Shown here one piece after another: positions 5,981 through 28,142 of a stretch of 30,941 nt of DNA. A program made the translations under genes and the position numbers. This DNA is from a virus, in IMG/VR virus record IMGVR_UViG_3300009124_000062, positions 1 to 30,941 of that record; one strand, written 5' to 3'. The notes beneath the pieces are model-generated. The model was given only the letters and a program-made list of their open reading frames with translations, was not told the DNA's origin and did not search any database. How positions within the stretch are numbered: position 1 is the stretch's first letter; the number at the start of each line of letters is the position of its first letter.

Positions 5981-6892
5981 ATGGCACGCTATTACGTTAA
6001 CGAAAAAGCTAGGTTTGGTGGTGTCGCTGGTACTATCATTCCTTTTCCACAACAATTGCCAGCAGGAAATACTCCTGATACTGGTAACTGGAGGAAATAT
6101 TTGCCAGCAGGATTTTTAAGATGTGATGGTTCTGTACTTAGTTCTTCTGAGTATCCTGTTTTAGCAGAAATTTTGGGGACAGGGGACAATTGTAAATTCA
6201 AAAAAGATGGGCAAGATCTTGCTGCTAACGAATTTGCTTTACCTGATTTAGGATCTAAGTATATTTCTGGATCTGCTTCTTCTGGTACATTTTTAAATTC
6301 TAAAATTGAAAATACTGACTCATCTCAAGGATATAGAGTAGGTGCTGAGGTTGATATTTCTTCCTTAGTTGGAGACACTCAAACAATTACATATGGAGGA
6401 AATTTTGAGTTAGTTCCTTTTACGCCAAAAAGCTTTATTGGTAATCCTCAGTTTAAAACTATTTCTTCTGATGGAAATACATTGAATGCTTTCCTTAGTG
6501 ATCAAGCATTCCAAGCACATGGTCATGATGCTACTATTGGCGTTTTTAGTTATCTTGGTAACTGGTCTGACTCTCTTTTTGTTAGTAACGACGGTGCTGC
6601 TTTAGGTGGTAATGATGCTCAAAACGAGGGATCTAATAATCTAGTTCAGGTTCAACAACCAACAGGATCTTCTGCTGTTGTTTCTCACTCACACCAAGTC
6701 GTATTTCCTAGTAGTTCTGATATTGCTGACGCTAATGAAATGACCTATCAGCTATTAGAACCTACTGTTGGTGAAATTGAAATCGATCCTTTAGGACTAG
6801 AAACTACAGTTACTATCACTACAGAAAATATTTACAAGTTGGATGAAGCAACTCCTCCATATATCCTAGTAGAATACATTATCAAGTTCTGA
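5981..6892 (+). CDS. Second tail collar-domain protein
   Basis: 303 residues, starting at the base after the preceding stop. Residues 17-95 hold a collar domain: GTIIPFPQQLPAG, then PAGFLRCDGSVLSSSEYPVL, then NEFALPDLGSKYISG. Two HxH motifs, HGH at 180-182 and HSH at 236-238, fit the metal-coordinating pairs known from T4-like fibre tips. The C-terminus ILVEYIIKF is a typical fibre end. The protein is about half the length of its collar neighbour and lacks the inserted carbohydrate-binding-like module. It may be a second short fibre, or a subunit sharing the fibre with the neighbour. Family assignment is strong; position in the virion is inferred. Confidence 0.82.
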   Translation: MARYYVNEKARFGGVAGTIIPFPQQLPAGNTPDTGNWRKYLPAGFLRCDGSVLSSSEYPVLAEILGTGDNCKFKKDGQDLAANEFALPDLGSKYISGSASSGTFLNSKIENTDSSQGYRVGAEVDISSLVGDTQTITYGGNFELVPFTPKSFIGNPQFKTISSDGNTLNAFLSDQAFQAHGHDATIGVFSYLGNWSDSLFVSNDGAALGGNDAQNEGSNNLVQVQQPTGSSAVVSHSHQVVFPSSSDIADANEMTYQLLEPTVGEIEIDPLGLETTVTITTENIYKLDEATPPYILVEYIIKF

Positions 6893-6893: not shown

Positions 6894-8450
6894 ATGGCAG
6901 CAAAAGTAGTTTGTATATCTGTAGTTGACGAAGCGGATACTTCCACTCATCTTAATAATAGAAATAGTGATTTTAATAATTTTAGAAACACATATCCAAA
7001 TAGAGAGATATGGTTATTAAATCCACAACCATCGTATACTAGTCAACTAGGTATTCCTAACAATTGGAATAGTGATCCTTTAGCATTTGGTCCTATTACT
7101 GTTAGTAGATTGGATTCTAGATATGGAACGTCAACTGTTCCACCAACTTCTGATTGGTTTGAAATTACTGGATTAGATGATGCTGAATCTGGTACAGTTG
7201 TATCGTTAGCAGTTGATACTTCGGGATCAACTAGATTGCCAGACGTTCAAGATTCCTACGATCAATTTATTGCTGATTGTAATGCTGCTGGGTTTGTATT
7301 AGTTGTTAATACTACATTTTCTAACGAACGATGGATTCCTCCTCATAATGTATCTGTTCCACCAAACACTTCTATTAGTGTATCTCCATCAACTATTTTA
7401 AGAAATGGTAGTGGAGCAACACTCTCTTGGACATCTGCTGGTGATATTACTGATATAGCTGTTACTGGTGTTACAAATCCTGGTCTTTCTGGTAGTGTCA
7501 CAGTTAATCCACAAAATACCACAACATATGATATTACTGCCGAAGGTCCTGCTGGAGATTCGGGTGATAGTGTTACTTTAACAGTTGTAGGACCACCTAA
7601 TATTTCTTCTTTTACTGCTTCTCCTAATCCACAAACTAGCGGCACAGATGGCATTCCTAATTATAACACTACATTGAGTTGGTCGGCGTCATCTGATCTA
7701 ACTGTTACCAGTGCCACAATCAGTTCTGGTACTTATTCTGCTTCTGTTCCAAATCCAAGTGCTAGTGGATCTTTTCAGGTAACTAATTTACCTCAATCTG
7801 TAGCTGGTAGTGGTGGAGCTAGTAGAACATATACATTGACGTTATGTCACTCGTTGGCATGTTCTACAGAAACAGTAACTGTAGAGGTTACTAACGATAA
7901 TACACCATCTAATACCTGGACTACAGAATTTACTGGGTTGGAACCAAATACATCATATTCTAAAAATCTTGGAACTTTAGCTGGTATTGATATGATAACT
8001 AAAGTATCGTGCCCCACATCGGGTGTCTTTTTTGCTAATGGTGCCAATGGATCTTACGCTAATCCACAGTATTTTAGTAATGGTCAAAACGTTTATATGA
8101 AAATGACGACGTTGCCATTTAATTCTGACCTTAGTAATTTACCAGCAGATCAAACATTTGGTAAACCAAATCCCAAAACAGTTAGCGTTACTATTGGTAA
8201 TTTAATGTCGTTTAATGTTACTTTTACTACTAGACCACCTAACATTGGAGAAACATTTAATTTTGATGGGGCATCTGGTGAATATCCTTATGAAGATATT
8301 GATTTAATTACTAATACTCCTAGTGAATATGCTGTAACTCAAACTCTAAATATGGATGATATTGATGTTGACGTTGAGATAAGAACTGATGATCCAAGCG
8401 TTGAAATTAAGATTAACAATGAACCGTGGCAAAATATTCAGGAGATTTAA
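6894..8450 (+). CDS. Adhesin-like virion protein: MIDAS-like N-terminus, Ig-like domains, shared C-terminal module
   Basis: 518 residues. Residues 101-140 contain a hydrophobic strand followed by VDTSGS (107-112), the DxSxS pattern of von Willebrand A metal-ion-dependent adhesion sites. The surrounding vWA fold is not complete by eye. Residues about 157-232 form an Ig/PKD-like domain (SPSTILRNGSGATLSW, then PQNTTTYDITAEGPAG). From about 238 to the end it is paralogous to the genes at 8451 and 10092: PNPQTSG, NYNTTLSW, GLEPNT, YPYEDIDLI, TQTLNMDDI, then IKINNEPW. The gene sits among collar-domain fibre genes with 1-base or zero-base gaps, which points to a late structural role. Host-surface binding is inferred from domain type. 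Confidence 0.78.
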   Translation: MAAKVVCISVVDEADTSTHLNNRNSDFNNFRNTYPNREIWLLNPQPSYTSQLGIPNNWNSDPLAFGPITVSRLDSRYGTSTVPPTSDWFEITGLDDAESGTVVSLAVDTSGSTRLPDVQDSYDQFIADCNAAGFVLVVNTTFSNERWIPPHNVSVPPNTSISVSPSTILRNGSGATLSWTSAGDITDIAVTGVTNPGLSGSVTVNPQNTTTYDITAEGPAGDSGDSVTLTVVGPPNISSFTASPNPQTSGTDGIPNYNTTLSWSASSDLTVTSATISSGTYSASVPNPSASGSFQVTNLPQSVAGSGGASRTYTLTLCHSLACSTETVTVEVTNDNTPSNTWTTEFTGLEPNTSYSKNLGTLAGIDMITKVSCPTSGVFFANGANGSYANPQYFSNGQNVYMKMTTLPFNSDLSNLPADQTFGKPNPKTVSVTIGNLMSFNVTFTTRPPNIGETFNFDGASGEYPYEDIDLITNTPSEYAVTQTLNMDDIDVDVEIRTDDPSVEIKINNEPWQNIQEI

Positions 8451-9596
8451 ATGCCTACAGTAACATTTAACACATATAGAGATGCTGGAGACCAAAACTA
8501 CATATGCTTTTCTGGTAGTTGTGTAGGTCCTAATACTGGAACATCCTTTGTAGATAAACCTGCTGGCAGTACTAATGGTTATAGTACACAAGGTAGTGGA
8601 CCAGGATCAGTTGCTTATAGAATTGATAGTGGCACACGAATTGGTCTTGACGATAGACAAGGTGAGGGTGCTGATGGTGACTATAATGATCTTATTGTAG
8701 ACATTACTTCTGGTAATGCTCAGTTTCGTTCTGGTGGATTGTATGTTTATTATGATCCTCCTGTAATTAGTGGGTTTTCTGCTGCTCCTAACCCACAAAC
8801 TAGTGGTACAGATGGTGTTCCAAATTATAATACTACATTATCATGGGGATATCAAAATGCTACTTCATTAACTTTAACTAGCAGTGCTGGTGAGTCATGG
8901 AATGTGTTGGGTACAACATCTCGTAATATTACCAATCTCCCTCAATCTACTGGTAATGGAGCAAGTAGGTCATATACACTAACAGCAAATAATCCTGATC
9001 GCCCAGCTGTTAGTGAGACAATTACAGTTGATGTATACAACGATAGAAATCCTTCTAATTCTTGGACTACATCTTTCACTGGATTGGAACCGAACACCCA
9101 ATACACTAGAAATTTGGGTACATTATCTGGAATTGATATGATAATTAAAGTTGAAAGTTCTTCTAGCGGCGTATTTTTCTCTAATAGTTCTAGTGGTGGT
9201 TTTGCTAATCCGAAGTATTTTACTAATGGTCAAACTGTTTATGTAAGGACAACTTCTCTGCCTTTTAACACAGATACTAGTGGATTATCTTCTTCTGCTA
9301 CTAATGGAAAAACGAATACTAAAACATTTTCTGTTAGTGTTGGGGGACTATCTGCTTTCAATGTCTCATATACTACTAGAGCGCCAGTCATTAAAGAAAA
9401 CTTTAACTATGACGGAGAAGCAGGAACTTATCCTTATGAAGATATTGATTTGATTTCTAATACTCCGACTGAATATGGATTGACACAAACCCTAAATATG
9501 GATGATATTGAAATTGATATGGAAATTAAAGGTGATAAACCAGATTTACAGATCAAGATAAATAATGGTAGTTGGAAAAACATTAGACAAATTTAA
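8451..9596 (+). CDS. Adhesin-like virion protein: DUF4114-like N-terminus, shared C-terminal module
   Basis: 381 residues, starting at the base after the previous stop. The N-terminal ~100 residues differ from the paralogs. They contain GLDDRQGEGADGDYNDLIVD (65-84), which fits the acidic (G/R)DxDYND signature of DUF4114, a domain found in secreted and surface proteins and thought to bind calcium. From about residue 108 to the end the protein parallels its two paralogs: AAPNPQTSG, NYNTTLSW, GLEPNTQY, FANPKYFTNGQTVY, YPYEDIDLI, LNMDDIEIDMEIKGD and IKINNGSW. The last 45 bases include a sequence resembling a T4 late promoter (9557-9564). Likely a fibre-tip or decorative adhesin; the ligand is unknown. 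Confidence 0.78.
   Translation: MPTVTFNTYRDAGDQNYICFSGSCVGPNTGTSFVDKPAGSTNGYSTQGSGPGSVAYRIDSGTRIGLDDRQGEGADGDYNDLIVDITSGNAQFRSGGLYVYYDPPVISGFSAAPNPQTSGTDGVPNYNTTLSWGYQNATSLTLTSSAGESWNVLGTTSRNITNLPQSTGNGASRSYTLTANNPDRPAVSETITVDVYNDRNPSNSWTTSFTGLEPNTQYTRNLGTLSGIDMIIKVESSSSGVFFSNSSSGGFANPKYFTNGQTVYVRTTSLPFNTDTSGLSSSATNGKTNTKTFSVSVGGLSAFNVSYTTRAPVIKENFNYDGEAGTYPYEDIDLISNTPTEYGLTQTLNMDDIEIDMEIKGDKPDLQIKINNGSWKNIRQI
9557..9564 (+). promoter_or_regulatory. Candidate T4-type late promoter (GATAAATA)
   Basis: GATAAATA matches the T4 late -10 element TATAAATA at seven of eight positions. It lies inside the end of the preceding CDS, 36 bases before the ATG at 9601, a normal late-promoter distance. The same octamer occurs at the equivalent place in the paralog at 11741. 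It encodes part of the conserved IKINNG motif, so a coding explanation is also possible. Confidence 0.4.
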
Positions 9597-9600
9597 CATT

Positions 9601-9918
9601 ATGGACGAAAAATATATCGGATTTTCTCAAGATGAAATTAGAGAAGATTTTAGAAAATTGATGGTGGCATCATCATCTCAAACTGTTCTATATGCTTTGT
9701 TTTTTGCTGAGGTTAGAAAAGATAGACGGTTGTTAGATAAATTATTCGAACAAGTAAGATATGTCACTGAGAAATATCAGATGACACCATATAGTGTTAT
9801 CAAGGACTTTGATAATGGTCTTGAAAATAATTATACTGTAGATCCCCAACTGGTTTCTGACATTTACGAAGAAGCATTAGCAGAACTTGAAGCAGAGATG
9901 GGAGAAAACAATGCCTGA
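9601..9918 (+). CDS. Hypothetical protein, 105 aa, in tail-fibre cluster
   Basis: I chose ATG 9601 rather than the in-frame ATG at 9565, which would overlap the upstream adhesin by 32 bases. The start lies 4 bases after the previous stop. The protein is charged and predicted mostly helical (RKLMVASSSQTVLYALFFAE, then KLFEQVRYVTEKYQ, then an acidic tail EEALAELEAEMGE). It has no signal peptide or membrane segment. I do not recognise the family. Its position between two fibre paralogs, its small size and its helical content would suit an assembly factor or chaperone, but this is inference. It overlaps the zinc-ribbon gene by 8 bases. Confidence 0.7.
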   Translation: MDEKYIGFSQDEIREDFRKLMVASSSQTVLYALFFAEVRKDRRLLDKLFEQVRYVTEKYQMTPYSVIKDFDNGLENNYTVDPQLVSDIYEEALAELEAEMGENNA

Positions 9919-10087
9919 ATTTCCAAGATCTTTAGAAGTAGTCAAACAAGAAGCAAAAGAAAAAATGAAAATCTGCTTACAATGTGAGGAGATGAATAGA
10001 GCTATTAAAACATGTAAGCAATGTAATTGTTTTCTTCCTGCTAAAGTTCTTGTGCCTGGATTACATTGCCCTCTAAACAAGTGGTGA
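9911..10087 (+). CDS. Small zinc-ribbon-like protein, 58 aa
   Basis: Residues 22-40 contain ICLQCEEMNRAIKTCKQCNC, with C22, C25, C35, C38 and C40. These are followed by FLPAK and CPLNKW (C53). The CxxC-x9-CxxCxC arrangement and the final CP-x-x-KW recur in small phage zinc-binding proteins, so a structural zinc site is likely. ATG 9911 was chosen over the in-frame ATG at 9887 because it gives a short 8-base overlap with the previous gene. It lies between two fibre genes and 4 bases before the glycine-rich adhesin gene, suggesting co-expression with tail components. Its molecular role is unknown. Confidence 0.72.
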   Translation: MPEFPRSLEVVKQEAKEKMKICLQCEEMNRAIKTCKQCNCFLPAKVLVPGLHCPLNKW

Positions 10088-10091
10088 AAAG

Positions 10092-11780
10092 ATGTCATCA
10101 ACTCCTGTATCAAATACATATACATCTGCTGAAAACGTTAACATTCCAGATAATCATGTCAATCTAACTATTACAGTTAATGGTGCTAGAGGTGGACAGG
10201 GTTATGGGGGTGGATCTAGTAGAGCTGGTGGTGATGGTAGAAATGGTACATTTCAATATCTTTCTTCTTATAATTTCACTGCTAGATCTTTAGTTCTAGC
10301 TCCTGGTGATAATGGTGATAATGGTGGTGGATATGGTGGTGGATCTGGCGGAGATGGTCCACATGACGGAGGAAATGGTGGACCTGGGCAATGGTCATAT
10401 CAGCAAGGATATAACTGTGATCAAGGTAAAGGATATGCTAGAGATTGTGGTGGCAGTTGTGGATGTTGTAGTAACTGGTATTGTGGTGGTAGTCAGGGGA
10501 ATGGGGATCCCTGTTGTGGTGGAGCACAAGGAACACCAAACGAATGTTTTTGCTGTTATGAACCAAAAACTTGTTACAACACAATTTATGTAAATAGTGG
10601 TGGTGGTGGCGGTGGTGGATCATCTAGTGCTGTTTATGATACCACTGCTGGTGCCTATGTTGCTATTTCTGGTGGTGGAGGTGGAGGTGCTAGATCTCAG
10701 GGTACTGGAGCAGCTGCCGCTGATTGGACTTCTGTTAATGGAAATTTTTCTGGTAGCTCTGGTAGTAATGGTGGAAATGGTGGTCAGGCTGGTGGAACTG
10801 GTGGAGGAGGTGGTGGTGCTCCTGGCAATAGTTACAATAACGCTGCTGGATCAAAATACAACACACAACTAGTATCTTTATCTTCTTCTTCTCTAGGCAA
10901 TACTCCAAGTATTGTTGTATCTTACGATTTACTTGTCCCTGAAGTAGGAATTAGTGCAAGTCCTAATCCACAAACTAGTGGATTAGATGGAGTACCAAAT
11001 TACAATACTACTATATCTCTTTCTCTTCAAAATTGGCAGTATGCTGTCCTTACAGGTAATGGTATAAATCAAACTTACTATCCTGGCGATACTTTATCAT
11101 ATACTGATAATAATCTACCACAATCTGTGGTAGGTAGTAATTCTCCTGCCACAGTTACATATACTGTAACGGCATATGCTGGATCTACAAGTGTAACTGA
11201 CACTTTGACTGTAGAAGTTACTAATGATGAAGATCCTTCAACCACGAATTGGACTACTACATTTAGCAATTTAGAAAAAGAGACAGAATATTCGAAAAAC
11301 ATCGGTCAAATTGCTGGTGTTGATATGGTTATTGAAGTTTCGTGTGAAGACAATGCAGTTTTCTTTGCTAATGGCGAAAATGGATCTTATTCCAATCCAC
11401 AATACTTTACCAATGGTCAAAACATTTATTTGAAAACAACAACTTTACCATACAACACTGACATATCTGGATTGTCTAGTAATGCTACATACGGCAAAAC
11501 AAACACTAAAACTATGGATGTTGTGATTGGAACTGATACTATCGCTGTTAATTTTGTTACTAGAGCTCCAGTTATCAAAGAAACGTTTGATTACGATGGA
11601 CAACCAACTGAGTATCCTTATGAAGATATAGACCTAATTACTAATACCCCAGCATCATCTCTTGTGACACAAACTTTAAACATGGATGATATTGAAATTG
11701 ATATGGAGATTAAAGGTGACAACCCAGATTTAGAGATCAAGATAAATAATGGTAGTTGGCAAAGCATTAGAGAAATTTAA
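10092..11780 (+). CDS. Glycine-rich, cysteine-cluster adhesin-like virion protein with shared C-terminal module
   Basis: 562 residues. Residues about 30-250 are very glycine-rich (GARGGQGYGGGSSRAGG, then long GGG runs at 170-176, 194-199 and 237-242). This resembles phage glycine-rich domains such as those of T4-like gp38 adhesins, in which polyglycine-II helices form the receptor-binding tip. Within this part, residues 109-161 hold 12 cysteines (for example CGCC, CC and CFCC), unusual for a virion protein made in the cytoplasm. From about 286 to the end it is paralogous to the two upstream adhesins (PNPQTSG, NYNTTISL, YPYEDIDLI, LNMDDIEIDMEIKGD, IKINNGSW). A tip adhesin is inferred. Disulfide or metal bonding of the cysteines is possible but not shown. 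Confidence 0.78.
   Translation: MSSTPVSNTYTSAENVNIPDNHVNLTITVNGARGGQGYGGGSSRAGGDGRNGTFQYLSSYNFTARSLVLAPGDNGDNGGGYGGGSGGDGPHDGGNGGPGQWSYQQGYNCDQGKGYARDCGGSCGCCSNWYCGGSQGNGDPCCGGAQGTPNECFCCYEPKTCYNTIYVNSGGGGGGGSSSAVYDTTAGAYVAISGGGGGGARSQGTGAAAADWTSVNGNFSGSSGSNGGNGGQAGGTGGGGGGAPGNSYNNAAGSKYNTQLVSLSSSSLGNTPSIVVSYDLLVPEVGISASPNPQTSGLDGVPNYNTTISLSLQNWQYAVLTGNGINQTYYPGDTLSYTDNNLPQSVVGSNSPATVTYTVTAYAGSTSVTDTLTVEVTNDEDPSTTNWTTTFSNLEKETEYSKNIGQIAGVDMVIEVSCEDNAVFFANGENGSYSNPQYFTNGQNIYLKTTTLPYNTDISGLSSNATYGKTNTKTMDVVIGTDTIAVNFVTRAPVIKETFDYDGQPTEYPYEDIDLITNTPASSLVTQTLNMDDIEIDMEIKGDNPDLEIKINNGSWQSIREI
11741..11748 (+). promoter_or_regulatory. Candidate T4-type late promoter (GATAAATA)
   Basis: GATAAATA, the same octamer as at 9557, lies 33 bases before the ATG at 11782. 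It sits within the IKINNG codons of the adhesin paralog. The first paralog reads GATTAACA at this point and is followed immediately by the next gene. Confidence 0.4.
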
Positions 11781-11781
11781 C

Positions 11782-11994
11782 ATGGCAAGTAGTAGAACAA
11801 AAACTGGGTTATGGAGAGTTTTCGTGCTTGTAAAGTCACAGCAAATTGGTGTGCTTGAAGAGTTTACAACTACTTACAATGATGAAGTTGTCAACGTAGA
11901 AGGAATTGATAGATATATCAATCCAGGTGATGATCTCTCTGGTGAAGATGAGATTGTACAACTTATTGCTAACACATATTTTGGTACGTTATGA
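11782..11994 (+). CDS. Hypothetical protein, 70 aa, in tail-fibre cluster
   Basis: ATG 11782 directly follows the upstream stop; the earlier in-frame ATG at 11749 would overlap the adhesin. The protein begins MASSRTKTGLWRVFVLVK and has an acidic C-terminal half (INPGDDLSGEDEIVQLIANT). It looks like a small mixed alpha/beta protein without membrane or export signals. I do not recognise the family. It overlaps the following gene by an ATGA junction, so the two are probably translated together. Its place just upstream of the giant fibre suggests a late, structure-related role, which is inference only. Confidence 0.65.
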   Translation: MASSRTKTGLWRVFVLVKSQQIGVLEEFTTTYNDEVVNVEGIDRYINPGDDLSGEDEIVQLIANTYFGTL

Positions 11995-12179
11995 GCGAAG
12001 TATTTCCTATTTTATATGGCATGGAACCAGATGATATGTATAAATCTGGTAGATTTACTCCTGACATTAATGAGCGACAAGAAATTACAGCAGATAAACC
12101 CATTCAAGTTAGGATCAATGGTGGTCCCTGGGTAAACGTTAGACCTAGTGACCTAAATAAATCTGAGGATAATACCTGA
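11991..12179 (+). CDS. Hypothetical protein, 62 aa, ending like the adhesin C-terminal motif
   Basis: It starts within an ATGA overlap with the previous stop. Residues 36-51 (KPIQVRINGGPWVNVR) resemble the final IKINNGSWKNIR of the three upstream adhesin paralogs, so this may be a stand-alone relic or short relative of that C-terminal strand motif. The rest is polar (MSEVFPILYGMEPDDMYKSG). No known family is recognised. Ten bases separate it from the giant fibre gene, and a late-promoter-like element lies within its last codons. Confidence 0.62.
   Translation: MSEVFPILYGMEPDDMYKSGRFTPDINERQEITADKPIQVRINGGPWVNVRPSDLNKSEDNT
12152..12159 (+). promoter_or_regulatory. Candidate late promoter (CCTAAATA)
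   Basis: CCTAAATA matches T4 TATAAATA at six of eight positions and ends 30 bases before ATG 12190 of the 2002-residue fibre gene. It is within the preceding CDS. Confidence 0.4.
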
Positions 12180-12189: not shown

Positions 12190-15100
12190 ATGCCATATAG
12201 TAGCAATCCTGTGTACGTTAGCCCTGGGGATAACGTACAGGTAAGATATCCAACACCAGATACATGGAATACGCAGGTTACTGTAAATCTTCGTATTGGT
12301 ACGGGACAGGATCCTGATGGTATTACTTTTGGTACAAAAATTCCTGATGCTACGCCATCTGGATTTACTTTTACGGATCAGCAAGGATATTTAAATGCTT
12401 ATGATGGCAATAGTAGCAATACTTTAACTGGTGGTAGAACAACTTTTCAAAGAAACACTACATATTATTCTAATTTAATTGAGATGTCGGGGTTTGAAGT
12501 CCCCATTGACGGTGCTATTTCTGCTAGATCTAACGGTCCTAAGAATAATAATACATCCAATACAACAGCACAGTTTAGGATCTTTAGAAATGGATCTTTT
12601 GATTCCTGGAGAACTACTATTAGTGGCAATCTTGCTGCAGGTACAGGTGGTATTCAACCAGGAGATAAAATTCAGTTAAGAGTAACTACTCCTGATTGGT
12701 ATATTACTTGGACTAGAGTTACATTTAGTGTAAATGAAACCACTACTGGTGGTGGTCTTGGTTCCGAATATACTGCTGCTGGTGTAACATCTTCTGCTAT
12801 CTTAACAGGAACGTGGGATATTTCTACTAGACCACAGGATCAATCGATTCCTGCTAGTGAAATTAACTTCACTGATCGTGTTGACATGGTTCCATACAGC
12901 GAAGGTGGACCACAATATTATTACCATCGTGTTGACATTACAAATATTGATACCGACGCTGTATTAAGAGTATCAACTACTGGTGTAGCAAGAGTAGTCA
13001 AGGTAGAAGGTGGTGGAAATGCTGCTGCTCCTACTAGTGGATATTCTACATCTTTAACAGGTGTTGTTCTTGGTGATGATGTATTTGTTAGGATGCCTAA
13101 TGGTACTAATTATACAGAAAAAGAAAGCGGATCAATAACAGTATTTGCTCAAGGTGGGGAGACCTACACTAGAGGTAGTAATTCTTACGAGAACGTAGAT
13201 GATGGCACAACATATGGATCTGGTACTTATGCTGTGTCACAAACTCTTGGTAGTGTAAGTGATAACTGGCAAATCTGGACAGAAGTAGATAGATATCCAG
13301 ATGCTATTGCAGCAACACCCATTTTTACATACGGTATTAAGACAGAAATTAACGTTGTAGGTGGAGTATCACAAACAGGTTCTGGATTTAACTACACTGG
13401 TACATTTAGTACTACTGGTGGATCTGGTAGTGGAATGAAGATTAAACTTCTTCCTGGTGGATCAAGTGGTACTTCATTCTCAACAATTAGTTCTGATAAT
13501 GGATATACTACAGCTTTCATTTCAGATCCTGGATATGGATATGCTGCCGATGATGTAATTACAATTGTTTCTCCTGGTGGTAGCAATGCCCAGATCAAAC
13601 TTTTAGAATATGAAAAGATTACAATCTCTAAAACCGTTAATGCCACATGTGAACCTGGATTTATGTACTTTGCTGACATGCCAGTGTCAGGTCTTGGTAC
13701 AGAATATACAGACGGTGCTTATGATAACCTAGAATCTCCTTATACTAATCTACAGAATACAACTCTCGGTTCTTCCTCATCTTCTGTACAAAGTATTAAC
13801 GAAGATTTGAATGGTCAATCTGTAAAGATTGAAGCTATTATTGATGGAACTGGTGGTCAGATTAGAAAAAATAATACAGGAACTTGGGGCAGTCAAGTTA
13901 TTGTTGAGAATGGCGACACGATCAATTTAAAGGTTAACTCAAATAGTACATTTGGTGGTACATCTACTGCTAAGGTTAGAATTATTGGTCCTACAGCAGG
14001 TAATCCAACTTTAGGTAACCCAACTGGTGGTCCTTCTCCTGCTTCTAAAGCAGAAAAGCAAACCACAATGACTCTTACTACTAGATCTAGAAGAGTTATT
14101 CCTTATCCTTTCCACGCTGAACCTGTTTTTCTTTCTAATCCTAATCAACAACACATTGCTGAAGTTGCTATCGAAGGTCTAGATGTACAAACAAATGCCA
14201 GTATTACTGCTGGTTCGGGCGATCTGAGTACAAATGGATCAAACTGGTCTAGTAATATTACAATTCAACCAACTGACACTACATTATATGTTAGAACTAA
14301 TGCTTCTGCTTCTAGCGGAGGATTACAACAGTTAACGTATAAAATTTATAGAGACGGTCAGGAAGCATTCGATACATTTAGAATTTATACTCGACTATTT
14401 AATGCTTTAGGAAACTTTGGGGCATTACAAGCAGATGGTGAGGGTCGTACCAGTTATGCTACATTAGAATTGCCTTATTATGCTACAGAAGATTTTTATG
14501 TAACACTAGTTGGTGCTGGTGGTGGTAGAGGTGGTGATGATGCTCCTAACTCTCAAGGTGCTGGAGGTGGATCTGGTAATTTCCTCAGATTAAGAGTACA
14601 AAGAGATGATTTCCCCGATCAAACTGGATTCCCTGGTGTTCCTGACGGTAGAGTTAGAGCATATGCTCCCGATAAAGGAATAGACGGTCAAAGTTATATT
14701 CAAGGAGCTGGCGGAGGTGCTGGTGGATTTGGATATGCTTATGGTGGTTCTGGTGGTAATTCTGGTAATGGAGATAAATCTGGTGCTGGTGGTGGCGGTG
14801 GTGGTGCCGCTGCTATTACAATGTGGGATGGAACTTTAATTGCCATGGTTGGTGGCGGCGGAGGCGGCGCTGGTGCTGGTAACGATACTGAAGTGCCACG
14901 TTCTGATGCTTTTGGTAACTGGGATGGATATGGTTCTCTACAAACAGTAACCACTAACATTAACTTGGGTGGCGATGATGCTTCTGATGCTACAGGTCAA
15001 GGTGCTGGTCCTGGTGGCGGCGGTGGTGGATATGATGGAACTGCTGGATCATTACTTACTCAGAAATTAGACGCTAATGGTAATGTTATTCAAACTACCG

Positions 15101-18100
15101 ACTTAGATGCTACTGGTGGTATAGGTGGTGGTGCTTATTATGATAGTACAAATACCACTATTCTTGCTGGTAGTACATTGGCAGGTCTTGGTGCCCCTCC
15201 TGGACAATTTGGTAGAGTTATTATCGAGTATGCCCCTCAAGATGTTACTCCAGATGATTTTGATTTTGATCAGGTAGATGGTATTGGCGTTAATACTCAG
15301 GTTGTTTCTTCCAGAGCACTGATTACTGGCATTACGGGTAAAGTACCAATTCAATTATCTTCTCCTGGATTTACTGCTACTGCTAGAGTTTGTAGTGCTG
15401 ATACTGATGCTTCTTGTGGTGCTTGGGGCGCTACTAATATTGGCAATAACGAGTATATCCAATTAAGAGCAACAACGGGAACTTCATATAATACTCAATA
15501 TGAAGTACAAGTTGAAGTTGGTGAAACAGCATCTACATGGACTATTAACACTGGTCCACCGCCAGATACTACACCAAACTTCTTCCAATTTACAGATGCT
15601 GAAGATGCTCCTTTGAGCACTCTAACTACTAGTGAGATTGTTACTATTAGTGGTATTAATGTTCCTGTACAAGTTACTGCTAGTGGTGGAGCAGAAATTA
15701 AAATCTATAATTCTGACAACACAGTAGATTTAGATTGGACATCTGGTTCAACACCAAATAATATCGAGAACAATCAGAAACTACGCATTAGAGTCACATC
15801 TTCTGCTGATTATAGTGATGATGTTGATGTTATTGTGACAGTTGGTACTGGATCTAATTCCGAAGATACCTGGACAGTTACAACCTTGGCGGAAGTTGAC
15901 ACTCAACCAGAGGGATTTAGTTTCTTGGATGTTAGTAACGCTAACCCCAATACAACATACACAAGTAATGTAAATGTTATTGAAGGATTGGGTGGTCCTA
16001 CTTATTTCCAAGTAGATTATGGTGATAATGATCAATCCGATTCATCAACTCCAGCACTACCCATTATTCTCCTTGATGGCGTCGAACAACTTAATGCTTC
16101 TGGTGATCCACTAACTTATATTCAAGTAGAGAATAATGATCAGATCTCATTGAAATACACCACTACTGGTGTACTTGGAGAACCCAGAGAGTTTATCACT
16201 AGAACTGGTGGTACATACAATACAACATCTCAAGAAGTGGAAGGATCTACTGCTTATCCAGTGTATGAGACTGACTGGAAAGTAACTACTGCTGGATCAT
16301 TTGTATCTAACCCAGCAGCATTTACCTTCCAAACAGTTCTAGCATCTGGAGCTGGTGTTGACACTAACTCAGTCGAAGTTCCTTCTATCTCTGGATTGGG
16401 ACAAGTCACTCCAGTTGTTACTACAAATGGATTAAAAGTTTCTATTAATGGTGGTGCTTTTAATCCATCTTCTGGACAATATACAGTAACTAATGGTAAC
16501 ACTATCCAAGTACAGTTAGAATCTTCCGAAATTCCTGGATTTACTAGAACTGGATCTATTACTATTGGTAACTATACGACATCATTTACGGTACAAACTC
16601 CTGCTGCTGTACAAGATCCCATTAAGAGTCAGTGGTATAGTTCCATTCAACCAGTTAAATATCTTGTTGCTGGTGCTAATGCTGGAAGTCAGATCCGTTT
16701 TGATACTAAGTTTGATGGTCTTCCTATTGGTTCTATGATCCCTGTGTTCCAAGATGGAACACAAAGTGATAACTGGGGAGATCTAGATGGTGATTTTACT
16801 TCTAGATTCCCTGGTATGCTTTACTGTGATGGTAGTTATGTAGAACCAGAAGATTATCCTATGCTGTTTGCTGTACTACAGTACAGATATGGAGCTGAAG
16901 CAGTAACTGGAGAAACATTTAGTACCACATTATATGATATTAATGGTAATATCCTCAAGGAAGATGGCGACGCTAAGATTTTGATGAGGTTACCTGACCT
17001 CAGAAATAGATATCTTAAGGGAACTGGTGTTATTGATGGTACACAGTTGTCATCACCTGCTTTAGCACCTACATACCAACCAACTAAACTTCCTGGAGCT
17101 CCTGGTGATCAATCTCCTGGAGCATTTGGTGGTATGTGGTATGTTGATACCATTGGAGATCCTGGAGTTGGTGAACTTGAACAAGTACAAACACCTGCCG
17201 AAGGTTTACCAGCAAATGAATCTGATTACTTTGGTATTGCTCAGGTACAAACCACTGGTTATACTGATGTCAGTGGTAATGTTGAGTTCTTGGTATCTGG
17301 ATCATGTACAGCTGAGGTAAGCCTTAAGAAACAAAAAGTTTATGATGTTCCACTACACTTCCACGAACTTGTTACTGGTCAGAAAGACCAAGGAGCATTC
17401 AAAGGTCGTATTAACTGGGGTAGTGATGGTGGATTTAGATCTCCTGCTGCTAGTGCTAGTGAGACATTTGTTGGTAAATTGAGCACAACATATGAATATG
17501 AGAAACAATATAGTTTTAACCAATGGGGATACTTGACTAGAACTGACGTTACAGTTCCTGATAATAATCTACCACCATCTGCTTATTGCCCTGGTAATGA
17601 TACTGAATGGTGGGATGGCACTACAGAAGATTGGTCAGATCCATCTGGTTTTCAAGGTATTTCTGATATTGGTAATCCATCAGATCCTTTATTAGTACAA
17701 TCGGGCGATATGTCTCCTGGTGGTTCCTCTTATACTGAAATTAATAATTATATCGATGTTGCTGGTTCTCCATGGGTAGGTAATGGATCATCTGACTTTA
17801 ATGGTGTCACTGGCGCTTATAAACAGTTTACTAGTGTTGATATTCCAGAAAGACAAGCTACTATTAAAGGATATAATCCACCTAGCAAGTTGTTCCACAC
17901 ACATTATCTTTCTCTAACAGCACCATTTGATGATGATGGTGAAATGTATAGTCACGGTAACTTTGATACTTATGGAAATAAGAGTGCTGGATTAAATACG
18001 AACGCTAGCACACATGGTCTTGAATCTGTTGATGTAGAATTCAGTGCTATTGCTGATCTTGGTGTCCAGGTTCTTCCTGGTACATTTACATTATCTCAGT

Positions 18101-18198
18101 CAAAACAACTCATTCCAACACCATCACTAACACCTCAAGATGAAGTGGCATTGATGTCTCCATACACTTGGACCAAGTGGTTGATCAAGGCATACTAA
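12190..18198 (+). CDS. Giant multidomain tail fibre with Ig-like repeats, glycine-rich domain and collar domain
   Basis: 2002 residues, the largest gene here. The N-terminal ~740 residues hold several divergent beta-sandwich units (for example EMSGFEVPIDGAI, then QPGDKIQLRVTTPDW). A glycine-rich domain spans about 773-1005 (LVGAGGGRGGDD, GAGGGAGGFGYAYGG), like phage Gly_rich domains. About 1016-1475 contains four tandem Ig-like repeats of roughly 100-135 residues, each with an F-x-F start, an N-x-I/T-I/L-x-V/L strand and most ending TWTVTT-like. A collar domain follows at about 1505-1615 (IGSMIPVFQDG, GMLYCDGSYVEPEDYPMLFA, MRLPDLRNRYLKG). HFH 1723-1725 and HTH 1903-1905 are candidate metal sites. 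It ends WLIKAY. Probably a long tail fibre or side fibre that contacts the host; the order of domains suggests a distal C-terminus. Confidence 0.85.
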   Translation: MPYSSNPVYVSPGDNVQVRYPTPDTWNTQVTVNLRIGTGQDPDGITFGTKIPDATPSGFTFTDQQGYLNAYDGNSSNTLTGGRTTFQRNTTYYSNLIEMSGFEVPIDGAISARSNGPKNNNTSNTTAQFRIFRNGSFDSWRTTISGNLAAGTGGIQPGDKIQLRVTTPDWYITWTRVTFSVNETTTGGGLGSEYTAAGVTSSAILTGTWDISTRPQDQSIPASEINFTDRVDMVPYSEGGPQYYYHRVDITNIDTDAVLRVSTTGVARVVKVEGGGNAAAPTSGYSTSLTGVVLGDDVFVRMPNGTNYTEKESGSITVFAQGGETYTRGSNSYENVDDGTTYGSGTYAVSQTLGSVSDNWQIWTEVDRYPDAIAATPIFTYGIKTEINVVGGVSQTGSGFNYTGTFSTTGGSGSGMKIKLLPGGSSGTSFSTISSDNGYTTAFISDPGYGYAADDVITIVSPGGSNAQIKLLEYEKITISKTVNATCEPGFMYFADMPVSGLGTEYTDGAYDNLESPYTNLQNTTLGSSSSSVQSINEDLNGQSVKIEAIIDGTGGQIRKNNTGTWGSQVIVENGDTINLKVNSNSTFGGTSTAKVRIIGPTAGNPTLGNPTGGPSPASKAEKQTTMTLTTRSRRVIPYPFHAEPVFLSNPNQQHIAEVAIEGLDVQTNASITAGSGDLSTNGSNWSSNITIQPTDTTLYVRTNASASSGGLQQLTYKIYRDGQEAFDTFRIYTRLFNALGNFGALQADGEGRTSYATLELPYYATEDFYVTLVGAGGGRGGDDAPNSQGAGGGSGNFLRLRVQRDDFPDQTGFPGVPDGRVRAYAPDKGIDGQSYIQGAGGGAGGFGYAYGGSGGNSGNGDKSGAGGGGGGAAAITMWDGTLIAMVGGGGGGAGAGNDTEVPRSDAFGNWDGYGSLQTVTTNINLGGDDASDATGQGAGPGGGGGGYDGTAGSLLTQKLDANGNVIQTTDLDATGGIGGGAYYDSTNTTILAGSTLAGLGAPPGQFGRVIIEYAPQDVTPDDFDFDQVDGIGVNTQVVSSRALITGITGKVPIQLSSPGFTATARVCSADTDASCGAWGATNIGNNEYIQLRATTGTSYNTQYEVQVEVGETASTWTINTGPPPDTTPNFFQFTDAEDAPLSTLTTSEIVTISGINVPVQVTASGGAEIKIYNSDNTVDLDWTSGSTPNNIENNQKLRIRVTSSADYSDDVDVIVTVGTGSNSEDTWTVTTLAEVDTQPEGFSFLDVSNANPNTTYTSNVNVIEGLGGPTYFQVDYGDNDQSDSSTPALPIILLDGVEQLNASGDPLTYIQVENNDQISLKYTTTGVLGEPREFITRTGGTYNTTSQEVEGSTAYPVYETDWKVTTAGSFVSNPAAFTFQTVLASGAGVDTNSVEVPSISGLGQVTPVVTTNGLKVSINGGAFNPSSGQYTVTNGNTIQVQLESSEIPGFTRTGSITIGNYTTSFTVQTPAAVQDPIKSQWYSSIQPVKYLVAGANAGSQIRFDTKFDGLPIGSMIPVFQDGTQSDNWGDLDGDFTSRFPGMLYCDGSYVEPEDYPMLFAVLQYRYGAEAVTGETFSTTLYDINGNILKEDGDAKILMRLPDLRNRYLKGTGVIDGTQLSSPALAPTYQPTKLPGAPGDQSPGAFGGMWYVDTIGDPGVGELEQVQTPAEGLPANESDYFGIAQVQTTGYTDVSGNVEFLVSGSCTAEVSLKKQKVYDVPLHFHELVTGQKDQGAFKGRINWGSDGGFRSPAASASETFVGKLSTTYEYEKQYSFNQWGYLTRTDVTVPDNNLPPSAYCPGNDTEWWDGTTEDWSDPSGFQGISDIGNPSDPLLVQSGDMSPGGSSYTEINNYIDVAGSPWVGNGSSDFNGVTGAYKQFTSVDIPERQATIKGYNPPSKLFHTHYLSLTAPFDDDGEMYSHGNFDTYGNKSAGLNTNASTHGLESVDVEFSAIADLGVQVLPGTFTLSQSKQLIPTPSLTPQDEVALMSPYTWTKWLIKAY
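15250..16611 (+). repeat. Tandem Ig-like repeat array within the giant fibre
   Basis: Four consecutive units begin near 15250, 15565, 15900 and 16300. Each has a DxxP or SNPAxF-x-F opening, a V-x-I-x-G-L/I strand, an (E/T)-N-x-(Q/T)-(I/L)-x-(L/V)-(R/K/Q) strand and a closing W-x-(I/V)-x-T segment (QTP in the last). Units are divergent protein repeats, not identical DNA repeats. Boundaries are by eye. Confidence 0.6.
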
Positions 18199-20728: not shown

Positions 20729-21976
20729 ATGCTCACCCTTCGTCCTCACCAGCAGCGTGCTCTTGCTGCTCTTGAGAACAACACTCACGGTCAAGTCATT
20801 GTCCCCACTGGTGGTGGCAAGACTATCATCATGATCAAGGATGCTCAGCGTCGTCTGACTGCTGCTGCTACGCCACAGACTATTGTAGTGGTCGCCCCAC
20901 GTATTCTGCTGGCAAACCAACTCTGTGATGAGTTCTGGTCTGCTTTCAATGGTGATGTTGATGCTGAGTTCTTCCACGTTCACAGTGGTGAGACTTCTTT
21001 CGGCAGCAGCACCAAAGTCCAGAAGATTCAATGTCACGATGCTGTCTGTAAGACTGCTGGTCTTCACCAAGTTATCTTCACCACTTACAATTCGCTCCGT
21101 CGTGTTGTAGAAGCAGGCATTGACATTGACTGTATCTATTACGATGAAGCACACAACTCTGTCCGTCGTGACTTCTTTGAGTCTGTGCTCAATGTTGATG
21201 CTAAGTCTTACTATTTCTTCACTGCCACTCCTAAGCACACTCGTTCTCCTTATGGTCGTGGCATGAACAACAGCATGGTTTACGGTCCTATTCTTGAGAC
21301 TGTTCCTGCTCCTGAGCTTGTCAACAACGGCAGCATTCTTGCTCCTGAGGTTGTGTCCTACGAGGTTGACTTCGAACGAGTCAAGGGTAAGTTCTCTTAC
21401 GAATCTGACAAGGACACTCTCACCAACCTGATCGAAGACATTGATGCTGATGGTAACAAGATCCTGATTGCTGCTCCTAGCAGTAAGATCATGTTCAACC
21501 TGCTCACTAAGACTAGTGTGCTTGACTTCTTTCATGACAAAGGTTACGATGTACTTCACATCACCAGCAAGTATGGTGCTTATGTGAACAAGACCAAGGT
21601 CAACCGTGAGCAGTTCTTCGACACCTTTAATGCTTGGGGCAAAGATCCTAATCGTAAGTTTGTGATCTTCCACTACAGCATTCTGTCTGAAGGCATCAAC
21701 GTCCACGGTCTAACACACTGTGTGTTCCTTCGTCAACTGGATGTCATCCAAATGGCACAGACTGTCGGTCGTGTCATCCGTCTTAACAAAGACGACGCTG
21801 CTGACATTGCTTGTGGTAAGATTACCCCAGGCAAGTTCGAGATGTACCGTAAGTCCACTGGCAAGGTTATCGTTCCTGTCTTCAAAAACTACGGTGGTCC
21901 TACCATCAAACGTCTTCAAAACCTTGTCGATACTATCTTCGTCAAGGGTCTCCCCGCTGTTTCTGTCACTGTCTAA
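20729..21976 (+). CDS. SF2 DNA/RNA helicase (DEAH type)
   Basis: 415 residues. Superfamily 2 motifs are in order: an LRPHQQRAL Q-like start (4-12), Walker A PTGGGKT (26-32), Ia VVAPRILLANQ (54-64), Ib TTYNSL (118-123), II DEAH (139-142), III TATP (165-168), SEGINV near 321, and VI QTVGRVIR (344-351). The order resembles UvsW and the helicase subunits of type I/III restriction enzymes. T4 UvsW is about 500 residues, so this is shorter, with no obvious nuclease or accessory domain. The gene uses noticeably more C-ending codons than the fibre genes. It overlaps the HNH gene by one base (TAATG). Likely roles are branch migration, replication-fork processing or work with the neighbouring nuclease. 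Whether it is the phage UvsW or an additional helicase is undecided. Confidence 0.85.
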   Translation: MLTLRPHQQRALAALENNTHGQVIVPTGGGKTIIMIKDAQRRLTAAATPQTIVVVAPRILLANQLCDEFWSAFNGDVDAEFFHVHSGETSFGSSTKVQKIQCHDAVCKTAGLHQVIFTTYNSLRRVVEAGIDIDCIYYDEAHNSVRRDFFESVLNVDAKSYYFFTATPKHTRSPYGRGMNNSMVYGPILETVPAPELVNNGSILAPEVVSYEVDFERVKGKFSYESDKDTLTNLIEDIDADGNKILIAAPSSKIMFNLLTKTSVLDFFHDKGYDVLHITSKYGAYVNKTKVNREQFFDTFNAWGKDPNRKFVIFHYSILSEGINVHGLTHCVFLRQLDVIQMAQTVGRVIRLNKDDAADIACGKITPGKFEMYRKSTGKVIVPVFKNYGGPTIKRLQNLVDTIFVKGLPAVSVTV

Positions 21977-22950
21977 TGGTAAATCAAACACGTGTCATCG
22001 GTAATCAGATCCTTAACTGGGAACAGTGTCAGGGTCTGATTAAGAACAAGCAGAACCTACTTATGGGTCGTCAAGCAATACATGATGCTGTTATCGTTGC
22101 CGATATTCCTTGGGAACAGGCAACAGATTATTACTACGCTTTATCTACTCCTGATCGTGCTATGGTTCGTAAGTCTGGGCAACAAGCTCAGACTGGTTGG
22201 TGGGATCCAGAGACACAATCTCTCACTAGAAATCCTACACATGCCCGTGGTATTCTAATCTGCCAGATGTATCTGAATCAGGCTGGAAAGTGTGCTTATA
22301 CTCACACTGGTCCTTACAACATTCTGGACTTCCAAGTGGAGCACATTGAACCAGGAGCAGGTGATCATCCTGACAATTGGTTCCTGGTAGTGTACAACGT
22401 CAATGAGAATCGTAAGCAGTCTCGTATGACAGATTTTATCCGACGTTGGGAGGTTCGTGCTGCTAACGGTGAAGAAGAGTTTAAGAAGTGGTATTCTGAC
22501 ATGAAAGCAGCAGCAAAGAAGGGTCACCGTGCTAAGGTGAGCATTCTGTCAATGAATGAAGATGAACTGAGAGATTATCTCTTCGAGTGTCCTCTAAAGT
22601 ATGAGAAATACATGTGGAGGAACATTGGTATGTCATCTCTCAGTCCTTCACGTTTGGGGAAAGATGGTGTACCTCGTAATGGCGGCAGTTGGGGAAACTA
22701 CAAACCAGTTATGAATACTATTCTCCGTGAGTATCTTTTCGGTGATAAAGAACTGGCAAGTCAGATCTTCCGTACTGTACGTATTGGTTGTGCTAAGTAT
22801 GTCGCTGGTGAGATCAACAATACTGATTATATTAGTATTATGTGTGAGTGTATTGAGTTGTCAAATCACCAGTGTCCAAGGTATAATAGAGAAAAGTTTA
22901 CCACCTTTGTCCTTAAGAACACTTATTCATGGCCCCATCTCAAAAAGTAA
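21976..22950 (+). CDS. HNH-family endonuclease
   Basis: 324 residues, starting in a TAATG overlap with the helicase stop. The HNH core lies at about 95-150: ICQMYLNQAGKCAYTHTG, then VEHIEPGAGDHPDNWFLV, then NVNENRKQS. The catalytic pair E122-H123, the D133-N134 and the later N residues fit a beta-beta-alpha metal finger, although only one clear Cys (C106) is in the core, so zinc knuckles are partial. The remaining ~170 residues probably bind DNA. It could be a free-standing homing nuclease, but the exact overlap with the helicase and with the methylase argues for a functional partner in a cluster. The substrate is unknown. Confidence 0.78.
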   Translation: MVNQTRVIGNQILNWEQCQGLIKNKQNLLMGRQAIHDAVIVADIPWEQATDYYYALSTPDRAMVRKSGQQAQTGWWDPETQSLTRNPTHARGILICQMYLNQAGKCAYTHTGPYNILDFQVEHIEPGAGDHPDNWFLVVYNVNENRKQSRMTDFIRRWEVRAANGEEEFKKWYSDMKAAAKKGHRAKVSILSMNEDELRDYLFECPLKYEKYMWRNIGMSSLSPSRLGKDGVPRNGGSWGNYKPVMNTILREYLFGDKELASQIFRTVRIGCAKYVAGEINNTDYISIMCECIELSNHQCPRYNREKFTTFVLKNTYSWPHLKK

Positions 22951-23771
22951 CCAACCATTCTCTCTACCGCTATGCTGGTGGAAAGAATCGTATGAAGAAG
23001 GATCTTATCAAGATTATTCGTGATGTCAACCCTGGCATCGAATATCTTGTGTCGCCCTTCTGGGGTGGTGCTAGCACTGAAATGCTGATCGCCAGTGAGG
23101 GAGTCAAGGTCCAAGGTTATGACGTGTTCCGCCCTCTGGCTGACTTCTGGGAGATTGTGTGTGGTGAGGGTGGTGCTGCCATCCTGGCAGACGCTGCTGA
23201 GCAGCACTATCCCTTAATTGATAGCGATCACTACAAATCCTTCCTCCCAGGGTTGGATAGTGAGGACAAGTGGGAGCGAGCACTGTCATTTTACATTGCA
23301 ATCAAGGGTTCGTACTCAGGTAAGATCGGATGTTCTACCGTTCGTAGTAGAGCAGAGTTCAGATTGGTGGGAATTGATAAACTTAGGAATTTTCATGCTC
23401 CGAACGTGTCGTTCTGCCATGGGTCGTGCTTCGACACGATCCCAGCACACGAAAATGACTTTTTATACCTGGACCCACCATATTATGAGACCGTGAGCCA
23501 TTACTATGGCAAAGATGGTGCTCTTCACAAGTCATTTGATCACGAGAGGTTCTGTGATACCTTGAAGCAACATAAAGGTGGGTTCGTGATGTCCTATGAC
23601 AACAGTGATGCTGTTCGATCACTGTATCACGGGTGGACTGAGTTTAGATATCTAACATTCCCATACCAAATGTCTGGTACTAAACGCTATGATAAAACTG
23701 AACTGGTTATTGTTAAATACCCAGAGAAGGTAAAACCTAAAGTTGGAGCGTTGGAGGCATTTATGGTATGA
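22929..23771 (+). CDS. dam: Dam-type (D12 class) DNA adenine-N6 methyltransferase
   Basis: 280 residues, close to the usual Dam length. Motifs of the D12 class are visible: RYAGGKNRM (14-22, motif X), PFWGGAS (43-49, motif I), GYDVFRPL (63-70) and the catalytic LDPPYY (181-186, motif IV). The reaction is S-adenosylmethionine-dependent methylation of adenine in DNA. The recognition site cannot be read from sequence; GATC is only the family's commonest case. ATG 22929 overlaps the HNH gene by 22 bases, and the stop overlaps the next gene by ATGA. It could protect phage DNA from host nucleases or mark it against the neighbouring HNH enzyme; both are inference. Confidence 0.85.
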   Translation: MAPSQKVTNHSLYRYAGGKNRMKKDLIKIIRDVNPGIEYLVSPFWGGASTEMLIASEGVKVQGYDVFRPLADFWEIVCGEGGAAILADAAEQHYPLIDSDHYKSFLPGLDSEDKWERALSFYIAIKGSYSGKIGCSTVRSRAEFRLVGIDKLRNFHAPNVSFCHGSCFDTIPAHENDFLYLDPPYYETVSHYYGKDGALHKSFDHERFCDTLKQHKGGFVMSYDNSDAVRSLYHGWTEFRYLTFPYQMSGTKRYDKTELVIVKYPEKVKPKVGALEAFMV

Positions 23772-24007
23772 GTTTATACTACACATCACTAATTTGTGTC
23801 TTTGCCATTGTACTGGCACTAATGGTGATTGACCCAAATATTGGTGTGTTTATTGATCTACAAGTCAGAAATCTATTTGTACAAATAAAGAGAACATATT
23901 ATTTGATTACTATTGGCACGGTTGTTAAAATTAATAATTGGAAGCTAAGACGTGAAATTGAAAAGATGAGACGAGAGTATGATTTCCCAGACGACACAGA
24001 TCAGTGA
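23768..24007 (+). CDS. Small membrane protein, 79 aa
   Basis: It starts in an ATGA overlap with the methylase stop. Residues about 4-22 (YYTSLICVFAIVLALMVI) form a convincing membrane segment, with a second weaker hydrophobic stretch near 38-52 (QIKRTYYLITIGTVVKI). The C-terminus is highly charged (KLRREIEKMRREYDF), probably cytoplasmic and helical. It is not recognised as a known family. It may be an inner-membrane protein with a cytoplasmic coiled-coil tail. Its end overlaps the oxygenase gene by 29 bases. Confidence 0.65.
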   Translation: MSLYYTSLICVFAIVLALMVIDPNIGVFIDLQVRNLFVQIKRTYYLITIGTVVKINNWKLRREIEKMRREYDFPDDTDQ

Positions 24008-24536
24008 TTATATTGTAAAGTATAAACTAATGGATGCTGATGATTCTATTGATATTATCACATACCTAGAGAAATATTGTAAATGGAAACCACATGAGTG
24101 GTACAACCACGGTAATGATCACAGAGAATCTTTCAACGACTTTGTGGTTACTGATAATGAATCTCTGTCTAAACAGTTTCAACCATTGTTACAACAGGGA
24201 TTAGTTGAATATGCTAACACCAAAATGGGTAAATTCCCTCAGGCTTTTTTTAATACACACGTTAGATTTAACAAATACAGTGTGGGTGAGAGTATAGAGG
24301 AACATGTGGATCATATTCACTCTATTTTCAACTCAAGACCTTCTGGTATTCCTGTTTTAAGTATGGTAGGATGCCTCAATGATGACTATGAGGGTGGTGT
24401 ATTTCACTTATGTGAAGAACCCATTGACATCAAAGCAGGGGAGTATATTATATTCCCATCGTTGTTCATCTATCCACATTATGTAACACCAGTTACCAAA
24501 GGAACCCGATACTCATGGGTATCGTGGGCATGTTAA
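23979..24536 (+). CDS. 2OG-Fe(II) oxygenase (prolyl-4-hydroxylase-like)
   Basis: 185 residues. The double-stranded beta-helix signature is present: H109-V-D111 (EEHVDHIHS), then the strand SMVGCLNDDYEGGVFHL, KAGEYIIFPS, the distal H167 (YPHYVTPV) and the 2OG-binding R177 (KGTRYSWVSW). The family couples 2-oxoglutarate decarboxylation to hydroxylation of a protein or small-molecule substrate. T4-like cyanophages commonly encode several, with unknown substrates. ATG 23979 is chosen because ISDYIVKYKLMDADD matches the usual N-terminal strand and helix; ATG 24030 would remove it. The start overlaps the membrane-protein gene by 29 bases. A second member lies at 28143. Confidence 0.82.
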   Translation: MISQTTQISDYIVKYKLMDADDSIDIITYLEKYCKWKPHEWYNHGNDHRESFNDFVVTDNESLSKQFQPLLQQGLVEYANTKMGKFPQAFFNTHVRFNKYSVGESIEEHVDHIHSIFNSRPSGIPVLSMVGCLNDDYEGGVFHLCEEPIDIKAGEYIIFPSLFIYPHYVTPVTKGTRYSWVSWAC

Positions 24537-27899: not shown

Positions 27900-28120
27900 A
27901 TCCCCTTCAACAAGAGCAACAATCTGTCTCCAAGCAAGTTGATGCCATCATGGCAAATCGTAATCGTCGCTTCAAGTTCCTTATGAACAAAGGACGTATG
28001 GAAGATGCCATTGCTGTTGGTGAAGAGTTCATGGAGTGGATGCTCCTTGATCAAGAAGATTGTGACGAAGAAATTCTGTATTATAAGGAGGGAGAACTTG
28101 AGGAATCTGTGGACCGCTAA
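27896..28120 (+). CDS. Hypothetical helical protein, 74 aa
   Basis: Starts in an ATGA overlap. Almost wholly helical: LQQEQQSVSKQVDAIMANRN, RRFKFLMNKGRMEDAIAVGE, EFMEWMLLDQEDCDEEILYY, ending in an acidic tail. The KGRMEDAIAVGEEF segment resembles a TPR-like helix pair, but one repeat is not enough to assign the family. Function unknown. Confidence 0.62.
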   Translation: MNPLQQEQQSVSKQVDAIMANRNRRFKFLMNKGRMEDAIAVGEEFMEWMLLDQEDCDEEILYYKEGELEESVDR

Positions 28121-28142
28121 TGCTATTGAATCCAGAGGATCG

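Follow-up and report, generated by a model that had tools for sequence, protein, structure and literature searches.

What is the function of three neighboring genes whose products end alike and begin differently? This question is raised by a stretch of DNA of 30,941 nucleotides (nt) from a marine cyanobacterial virus, positions 1 to 30,941 of IMG/VR virus record IMGVR_UViG_3300009124_000062, which is called the window here. The genes start at 6894, 8451 and 10092 and are referred to as the cassette, and their products as w1, w2 and w3. We consider it probable that they form a T4-like cyanophage cassette of modular tail adhesins, in which variable heads sit on a common stalk, are docked by a terminal module, are displayed together, and are swapped by recombination. 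Each gene would encode one unit. At its N-terminus is a head that varies, followed by a stalk of beta-sandwiches (an immunoglobulin (Ig)-like domain and another sandwich), and at its C-terminus, after a flexible linker, is a conserved terminal module of about 60 residues.

Shared C-termini and unrelated heads

A preliminary description of the window had claimed that the open reading frames (ORFs) at 6894, 8451 and 10092 share a C-terminal half of about 275 residues with motifs in a fixed order, and alignment bore this out. The three C-termini have about 273 residues in common, with 57-60% amino acid (aa) identity over about 273-287 alignment columns. YPYEDIDLI and IKINN are invariant in w1, w2 and w3, and GLEPNT reads NLEKET in w3. 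A chance likeness of the C-termini is excluded, since the comparison of P0001 with P0002 gave 322 bits (E 1e-110). The C-termini are homologous over their whole length and were modeled as one common domain chain, in keeping with a shared fold. High DNA identity near the gene ends had also been pointed out; the longest direct repeat in the cassette, of 226 nt, occurs in three copies over the 3' ends of the genes with 70-81% identity. A C-terminal stalk and terminal module common to tandem genes is the arrangement of the cassettes of Kyanoviridae.

The heads were found to be unrelated, as the description had stated in assigning each gene a different N-terminal domain. All three genes are on the + strand. 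Gene 1 (6894..8450) encodes w1 of 518 aa, with an alpha/beta head that carries the MIDAS-like motif D108-x-S-G-S (at about 7215-7229), an Ig-like domain, the shared stalk, and the terminal module. Gene 2 (8451..9596) encodes w2 of 381 aa, with a DUF4114-like head, an Ig-like domain, a second beta-sandwich, a linker, and a terminal hairpin. Gene 3 (10092..11780) encodes w3 of 562 aa, with a Gly/Cys-rich head (aa 1-285), the shared stalk, and a terminal module like that of the fourth gene of its relatives.

The AlphaFold model of w2, which has a mean predicted local distance difference test score of 87.6, begins with a beta-sandwich head at residues 1-103, continues with an Ig-like domain (104-200) and another beta-sandwich (205-312), and ends with a disordered linker (315-355) and a terminal hairpin (358-381). 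Structural matches were to Ig, cadherin and adhesin stalks and to cyanophage virion proteins, and whole-chain TM-scores were low, as is expected for a flexible multi-domain chain. The model of w1 is weaker (72.5) and has an alpha/beta head. DxSGS, D12, E13, D61 and E145 are invariant in 37 of 37 homologues of this head, which is a MIDAS-like signature. The head gave no Pfam match, and a fold search with the whole w1 model gave only Ig-type matches in the top 50, dominated by Ig chains. The model and the invariant residues suggest a MIDAS-like alpha/beta head, with the vWA fold itself as a candidate.

The w2 head matched DUF4114 with 18.8 bits (E 0.0033), below the Pfam cut-off of 27; seven homologues of this head matched DUF4114 (best E 3e-4), and homologue matches in all went down to E 8e-5. 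The w3 head has no Pfam match of its own; among 70 head representatives, Gly_rich_2 was matched by 14. Within its Gly-rich region (window 10092-10946) lies a dense Cys-rich stretch, with many CC and CxC in about 60 residues, and similar inserts are present in heads of loci L036 and L045. A SUEL D-galactoside/L-rhamnose lectin domain forms a cassette head at L051:10896-11240 with a Pfam match well above the cut-off (E 3.6e-11), and the lectin head was also assigned to L046 and L047 by head clustering.

Standard searches yielded little. The Pfam scan of the window cassette proteins gave sub-threshold matches only, a nucleotide search with the cassette among phage records gave no match, and when the w1 head and the w2 profile were searched against PDB sequences, all matches were at chance level or weak ones to Ig/T-cell-receptor entries. 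Promoter and terminator scans gave counts at or below those of shuffled sequence.

Recombination joints in the cassette and its relatives

Loci for comparison were gathered from phage isolates and metagenomic contigs, by C-terminal alignment first and then by the neighboring collar protein. The closest relatives of the window, L008 and L009 (protein identity 89-94%), carry one cassette gene more than the window, four against three. Gene 3 of the window follows gene 3 of L008/L009 at 88-100% DNA identity (mostly 92-98%) and then follows their gene 4 over its last ~100 nt. The DNA 3' of it also corresponds to the DNA 3' of the relatives' gene 4 (96% vs 25%). A recombination joint was placed at 11667..11679 on the + strand (MaxChi 181, permutation p 0.001), with the left side like L008 gene 3 and the right side like L008 gene 4. 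Informative sites agree with gene 3 at 258 of 268 positions left of this joint and at 0 of 19 right of it. The joint lies just before and in the DNA that codes for LNMDDIEID, a repeat that the preliminary description had named. By its sequence, gene 3 of the window is clearly a recombinant of gene 3 and gene 4. Either the window may have lost gene 4 or L008 and L009 may have gained it.

Another such tract was found at the 3' end of gene 2 (9490..9596, + strand), which by sequence comparison is nearer to gene 3 of the window and L008 gene 4 (92-93%) than to L008 gene 2 (77-80%). This end is probably a conversion tract, in either direction.

Joints were also seen between natural phages with closely similar flanks. 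S-RIM44 Sn_08_0709 and ES_42_0910 have flanks of 96% and 98%, and the difference in their gene 1 stops 260 nt short of the gene end; gene 0 differs too, at 85%. ACG-2014j US23 and US103 (flanks 91-92%) have heads that differ up to 205 nt before the gene end. In the pairs L069/L079, L027/L197, L026/L197 and L106/L164 (flanks 84-92%), the left joint coincides with the boundary of the gene and the right one falls inside the common C-terminus. When the nearest stalk was determined (n=138), it bore the same head in another phage in 82 cases and a different head in another phage in 32; in 24 cases it was a paralogue from the stalk's own genome. The comparisons show that whole heads are exchanged among natural phages, with joints at gene starts and in the common C-terminus. 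The suggestion that recombination between copies could exchange heads therefore holds, and a joint inside the common C-terminus was seen in the window's own gene 3.

Cassettes in related phages and the surrounding genes

Many T4-like cyanophages (Kyanoviridae) have 1-6 such genes at the collar/large-fiber locus, and tandem genes with common C-termini, between two and six inside one genome, were seen at 59 loci. S-PM2 has 3 cassette genes, S-CAM3 has 6, and L008, L047 and L051 have 4 each; a few phages (S-H9-1, S-RSM4) have a single one. Gene 1 of the cassette is split into two ORFs in L015 (7801-9047) and is a single ORF in the near-identical L016 (2922-4121). The homologues of the cassette genes are T4-GC 737-739 (S-PM2 d221-d223) and PHROGs 29022/2155/9770.

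Related phages do not always hold the same heads. Clustering of the heads gave 22 clusters in a first set and about 27 in an enlarged set of 460 N-termini, numbers that are approximate since clustering was by single linkage and the enlarged run puts the lectin heads into the DUF4114 cluster and merges HF9 with HF1. Clustering was at first done on full heads, which over-merged since linkers are common, and was repeated on the first 110 residues. The heads are arranged in about 70 distinct orders, an approximate number that includes truncated contigs and several loci from one contig. The place of a given head can vary; Syn1, for instance, has MIDAS>HF2>Gly and S-RIM32 has Gly>HF2>MIDAS.

The terminal module, the last ~60 residues, is conserved far outside the window. 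On six complete genomes, its profile matched only cassette genes or a headless small gene. There were 3 matches in S-PM2, 6 in S-CAM3 and 3 in Syn1; ACG-2014e has 3 copies spread over 2 genes, ACG-2014j also has 3 copies, and the small headless gene alone was matched in Sf-FR1. The window has such a stand-alone terminal module of 62 aa at 11991..12179 (+ strand), which was identified by alignment and by profile matches to its orthologues (E 1e-8 to 1e-10). In about 40 loci, that of the window among them, a headless gene of 58-71 aa follows the cassette. Several phages have 2-4 complete head-stalk units joined in a single protein of up to 2259 aa, and both MIDAS-like and DUF4114-like heads are found at internal positions in fused proteins. 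The 2259-aa protein is encoded at L174:3748-10527 and has four copies of stalk and terminal module.

The genes of this 30.9-kb virus fragment are ordered as in the tail-fiber region of T4-like cyanophages. First come a very large tail gene, a collar/short-tail-fiber gene and a 303-aa collar gene, and then the cassette, small ORFs, a 2002-aa collar-type fiber gene, and a tail-assembly chaperone. The annotated order is the same in S-PM2, Sf-FR1, S-CAM1, ACG-2014e, S-RIM32, Syn1, S-CAM3, S-RIM44, and others. As in Kyanoviridae of the S-PM2 d221-d223 type, the cassette has a collar gene on one side and a large collar/short-tail-fiber gene on the other. The upstream border is the 303-aa tail collar protein (5981..6892, + strand; Pfam Collar E 1e-8, phrog_4714 E 2e-60), a neighbor that is kept in S-PM2, S-CAM3, Syn1, and others. 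The collar domain (PF07484) is present in the upstream flanking genes and absent from the cassette genes. The downstream border is the large tail-fiber-type protein of 2002 aa (12190..18198, + strand), which has weak stalk-like repeats and whose position is annotated as collar/short tail fiber in relatives.

Small ORFs lie within and after the cassette, also on the + strand. Between genes 2 and 3 are an ORF of 117 aa (9565..9918, more likely start ATG 9601) and a Cys-rich ORF of 66 aa (9887..10087, more likely start ATG 9911; phrog_13558 E 6e-12), both conserved in L008/L009. It is possible that these two encode assembly helpers. L016 has an 80-aa ORF at a similar place. An ORF of 81 aa that is conserved in the clade is found 3' of the cassette (11749..11994, more likely start ATG 11782). 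Further downstream, the window has a helicase (ResIII/DEAD; 20729-21976), a D12-class adenine DNA methyltransferase (22929-23771), and two 2OG-Fe(II) oxygenase genes (23979-24536 and 28005-28775); genes of this kind are located directly 3' of the large fiber gene in isolates. A 226-aa protein at 28887-29564 has a signal-peptide-like N-terminus and a HEGWH (HExxH, zinc-peptidase-like) motif with no Pfam match.

Proposed docking and display, and comparison with known systems

How would these units be mounted and used? The terminal module would most likely dock each unit on a common site of the baseplate/short-tail-fiber apparatus that is encoded on either side of the cassette. Different heads would be displayed together on one virion and would bind host-surface glycans or other receptors. 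During co-infection, homologous recombination with one joint in the repeated stalk and terminal-module DNA and one where the gene starts would replace, add or delete heads while the docking end is kept. Receptor binding is suggested by domain identity (lectin, MIDAS-like, Gly-rich) together with the locus, and docking to the baseplate is likewise our inference. We favor co-display since the genes are in tandem on the same strand, no invertible repeats surround them, and multi-head fusions occur naturally. The locus, the lectin and MIDAS-like heads, the lack of a switching device and the fusions that tie heads together all led us to this picture of tail-tip docking, host binding and co-display. 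The preliminary description had proposed alternative or co-displayed receptor-binding heads on a common anchor. This reading is supported, except that receptor binding and alternative display went beyond the evidence; of the two modes of display, co-display is the one with support. In a co-evolution experiment with S-PM2, mutations were reported in the flanking genes d218, d219, d220 and d224 (PMC9910659). That genes on both sides of the cassette mutated fits a role of the region in adsorption.

Some observations weigh against a tail-adhesin cassette. The main text of the same study names no mutation in the S-PM2 cassette genes d221-d223 (PMC9910659), terminal modules internal to fused proteins are not readily explained by a strictly C-terminal anchor, and PHROG files the homologues under 'head and packaging' with the generic label 'virion structural protein'. 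The PHROG category would suit capsid- or neck-displayed decorations like Hoc, with weak general stickiness, as would the Ig-like chain and the outer capsid proteins that occur by name among the structural matches. Such matches, however, are expected of any Ig chain, and the locus is flanked by collar/short-tail-fiber genes in the relatives examined; we regard this explanation as unlikely. T4 Hoc is a virion-displayed chain of Ig-like domains, and the likeness here is confined to Ig-like folds; Hoc is a single capsid-bound gene product without exchangeable heads. The targets of the heads could instead be particles in the environment, competing phages or other parts of the phage, and the Gly-rich heads do lack an assigned ligand. 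We find this quite improbable, since one head is a genuine lectin domain and the heads are exchanged in the manner usual for receptor-binding proteins.

A switch, by phase variation or site-specific recombination, that lets one head at a time be made or mounted is suggested by the likeness to invertible tail-fiber systems, in which one anchor likewise serves several interchangeable heads. We consider it very unlikely, since the genes are all intact and on one strand, the end of gene 1 (8450) abuts the start of gene 2 (8451), and natural multi-head fusions exist. Of the inverted repeats and invertase that mark those systems, only one inverted-repeat pair was found in the window cassette (27 nt, 74%), and no invertase was noticed among the window ORFs scanned, the window being part of a genome. 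Phase variation was rejected with this lone weak pair within gene 3 as its only candidate. That the common halves are ordinary ancient duplicates that diverged without exchange, with head differences left by vertical loss, would agree with the 82 of 138 stalks that are nearest to a same-head stalk in another phage. It is contradicted by the sharp joints, with flanks >90% on both sides and unrelated heads in between, and by the clear gene 3/gene 4 recombinant in the window, and we give it almost no credence.

Parts of the proposed cassette have precedents. Tetart and colleagues reportedly described in 1998 that conserved motifs in the T-even gp37/gp38 adhesin locus are recombination points for swapping adhesin specificity. 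Both systems belong to T4-like phages, use conserved repeated motifs as joints for swapping receptor-binding parts, and have Gly-rich binding heads. There, one fiber-tip adhesin is exchanged, whereas here 1-6 tandem genes have an N-terminal variable part, a C-terminal common stalk and module, and fusions. With head swapping at conserved motifs, the cassette works like the gp38 system without being a member of it, binding by the heads being predicted here; no gp38 match to the window cassette proteins was found in Pfam/PHROG. In the branched tail-spike complex of Ackermannviridae, clustered receptor-binding genes on common docking parts undergo exchange, deletion, and recombination between neighbors (PMC11414711). 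The cassette is alike in its cluster of several receptor-binding-type genes, common docking parts, and exchange between neighbors. In contrast to the N-terminal docking and C-terminal binding there, the polarity here is reversed, and the cassette has beta-sandwich-chain modules and a headless docking-module gene. T4-GC 737-739 and PHROGs 29022/2155/9770 are direct homologues at the same locus, but they are annotated merely as virion structural or hypothetical, and the head/stalk/module organization and exchange are undescribed in searchable texts. No description of a head-swapping cassette was found in the open-access literature searched, subscription papers being outside its scope. Swapping of adhesin parts is known from T-even phages and multi-protein docking sets from Ackermannviridae; this cassette differs in polarity, number of tandem units, fusions, and the headless gene.

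A broader idea, which we put forward only tentatively, is a general plug-in system in which any head on a stalk and ~60-residue terminal module mounts on the common docking site. Virions would then carry a mixed set of 1-6 heads, host range would evolve by head shuffling from a common pool, and the headless 62-residue protein would be a cap or competitor at the docking site.

According to a review, several T4 tail-fiber proteins have no recognized counterpart in marine T4-like cyanophages (PMC2984593). The receptor-binding proteins of these phages are largely unknown, and this locus gives concrete candidates. It also gives a modular grammar of head, stalk and terminal module, as well as natural isolates distinguished from one another here by one head. 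Head swapping probably enables these phages to alter or broaden their attachment to host cells, and through the cassette locus the host-range determinants of abundant ocean viruses become directly testable.
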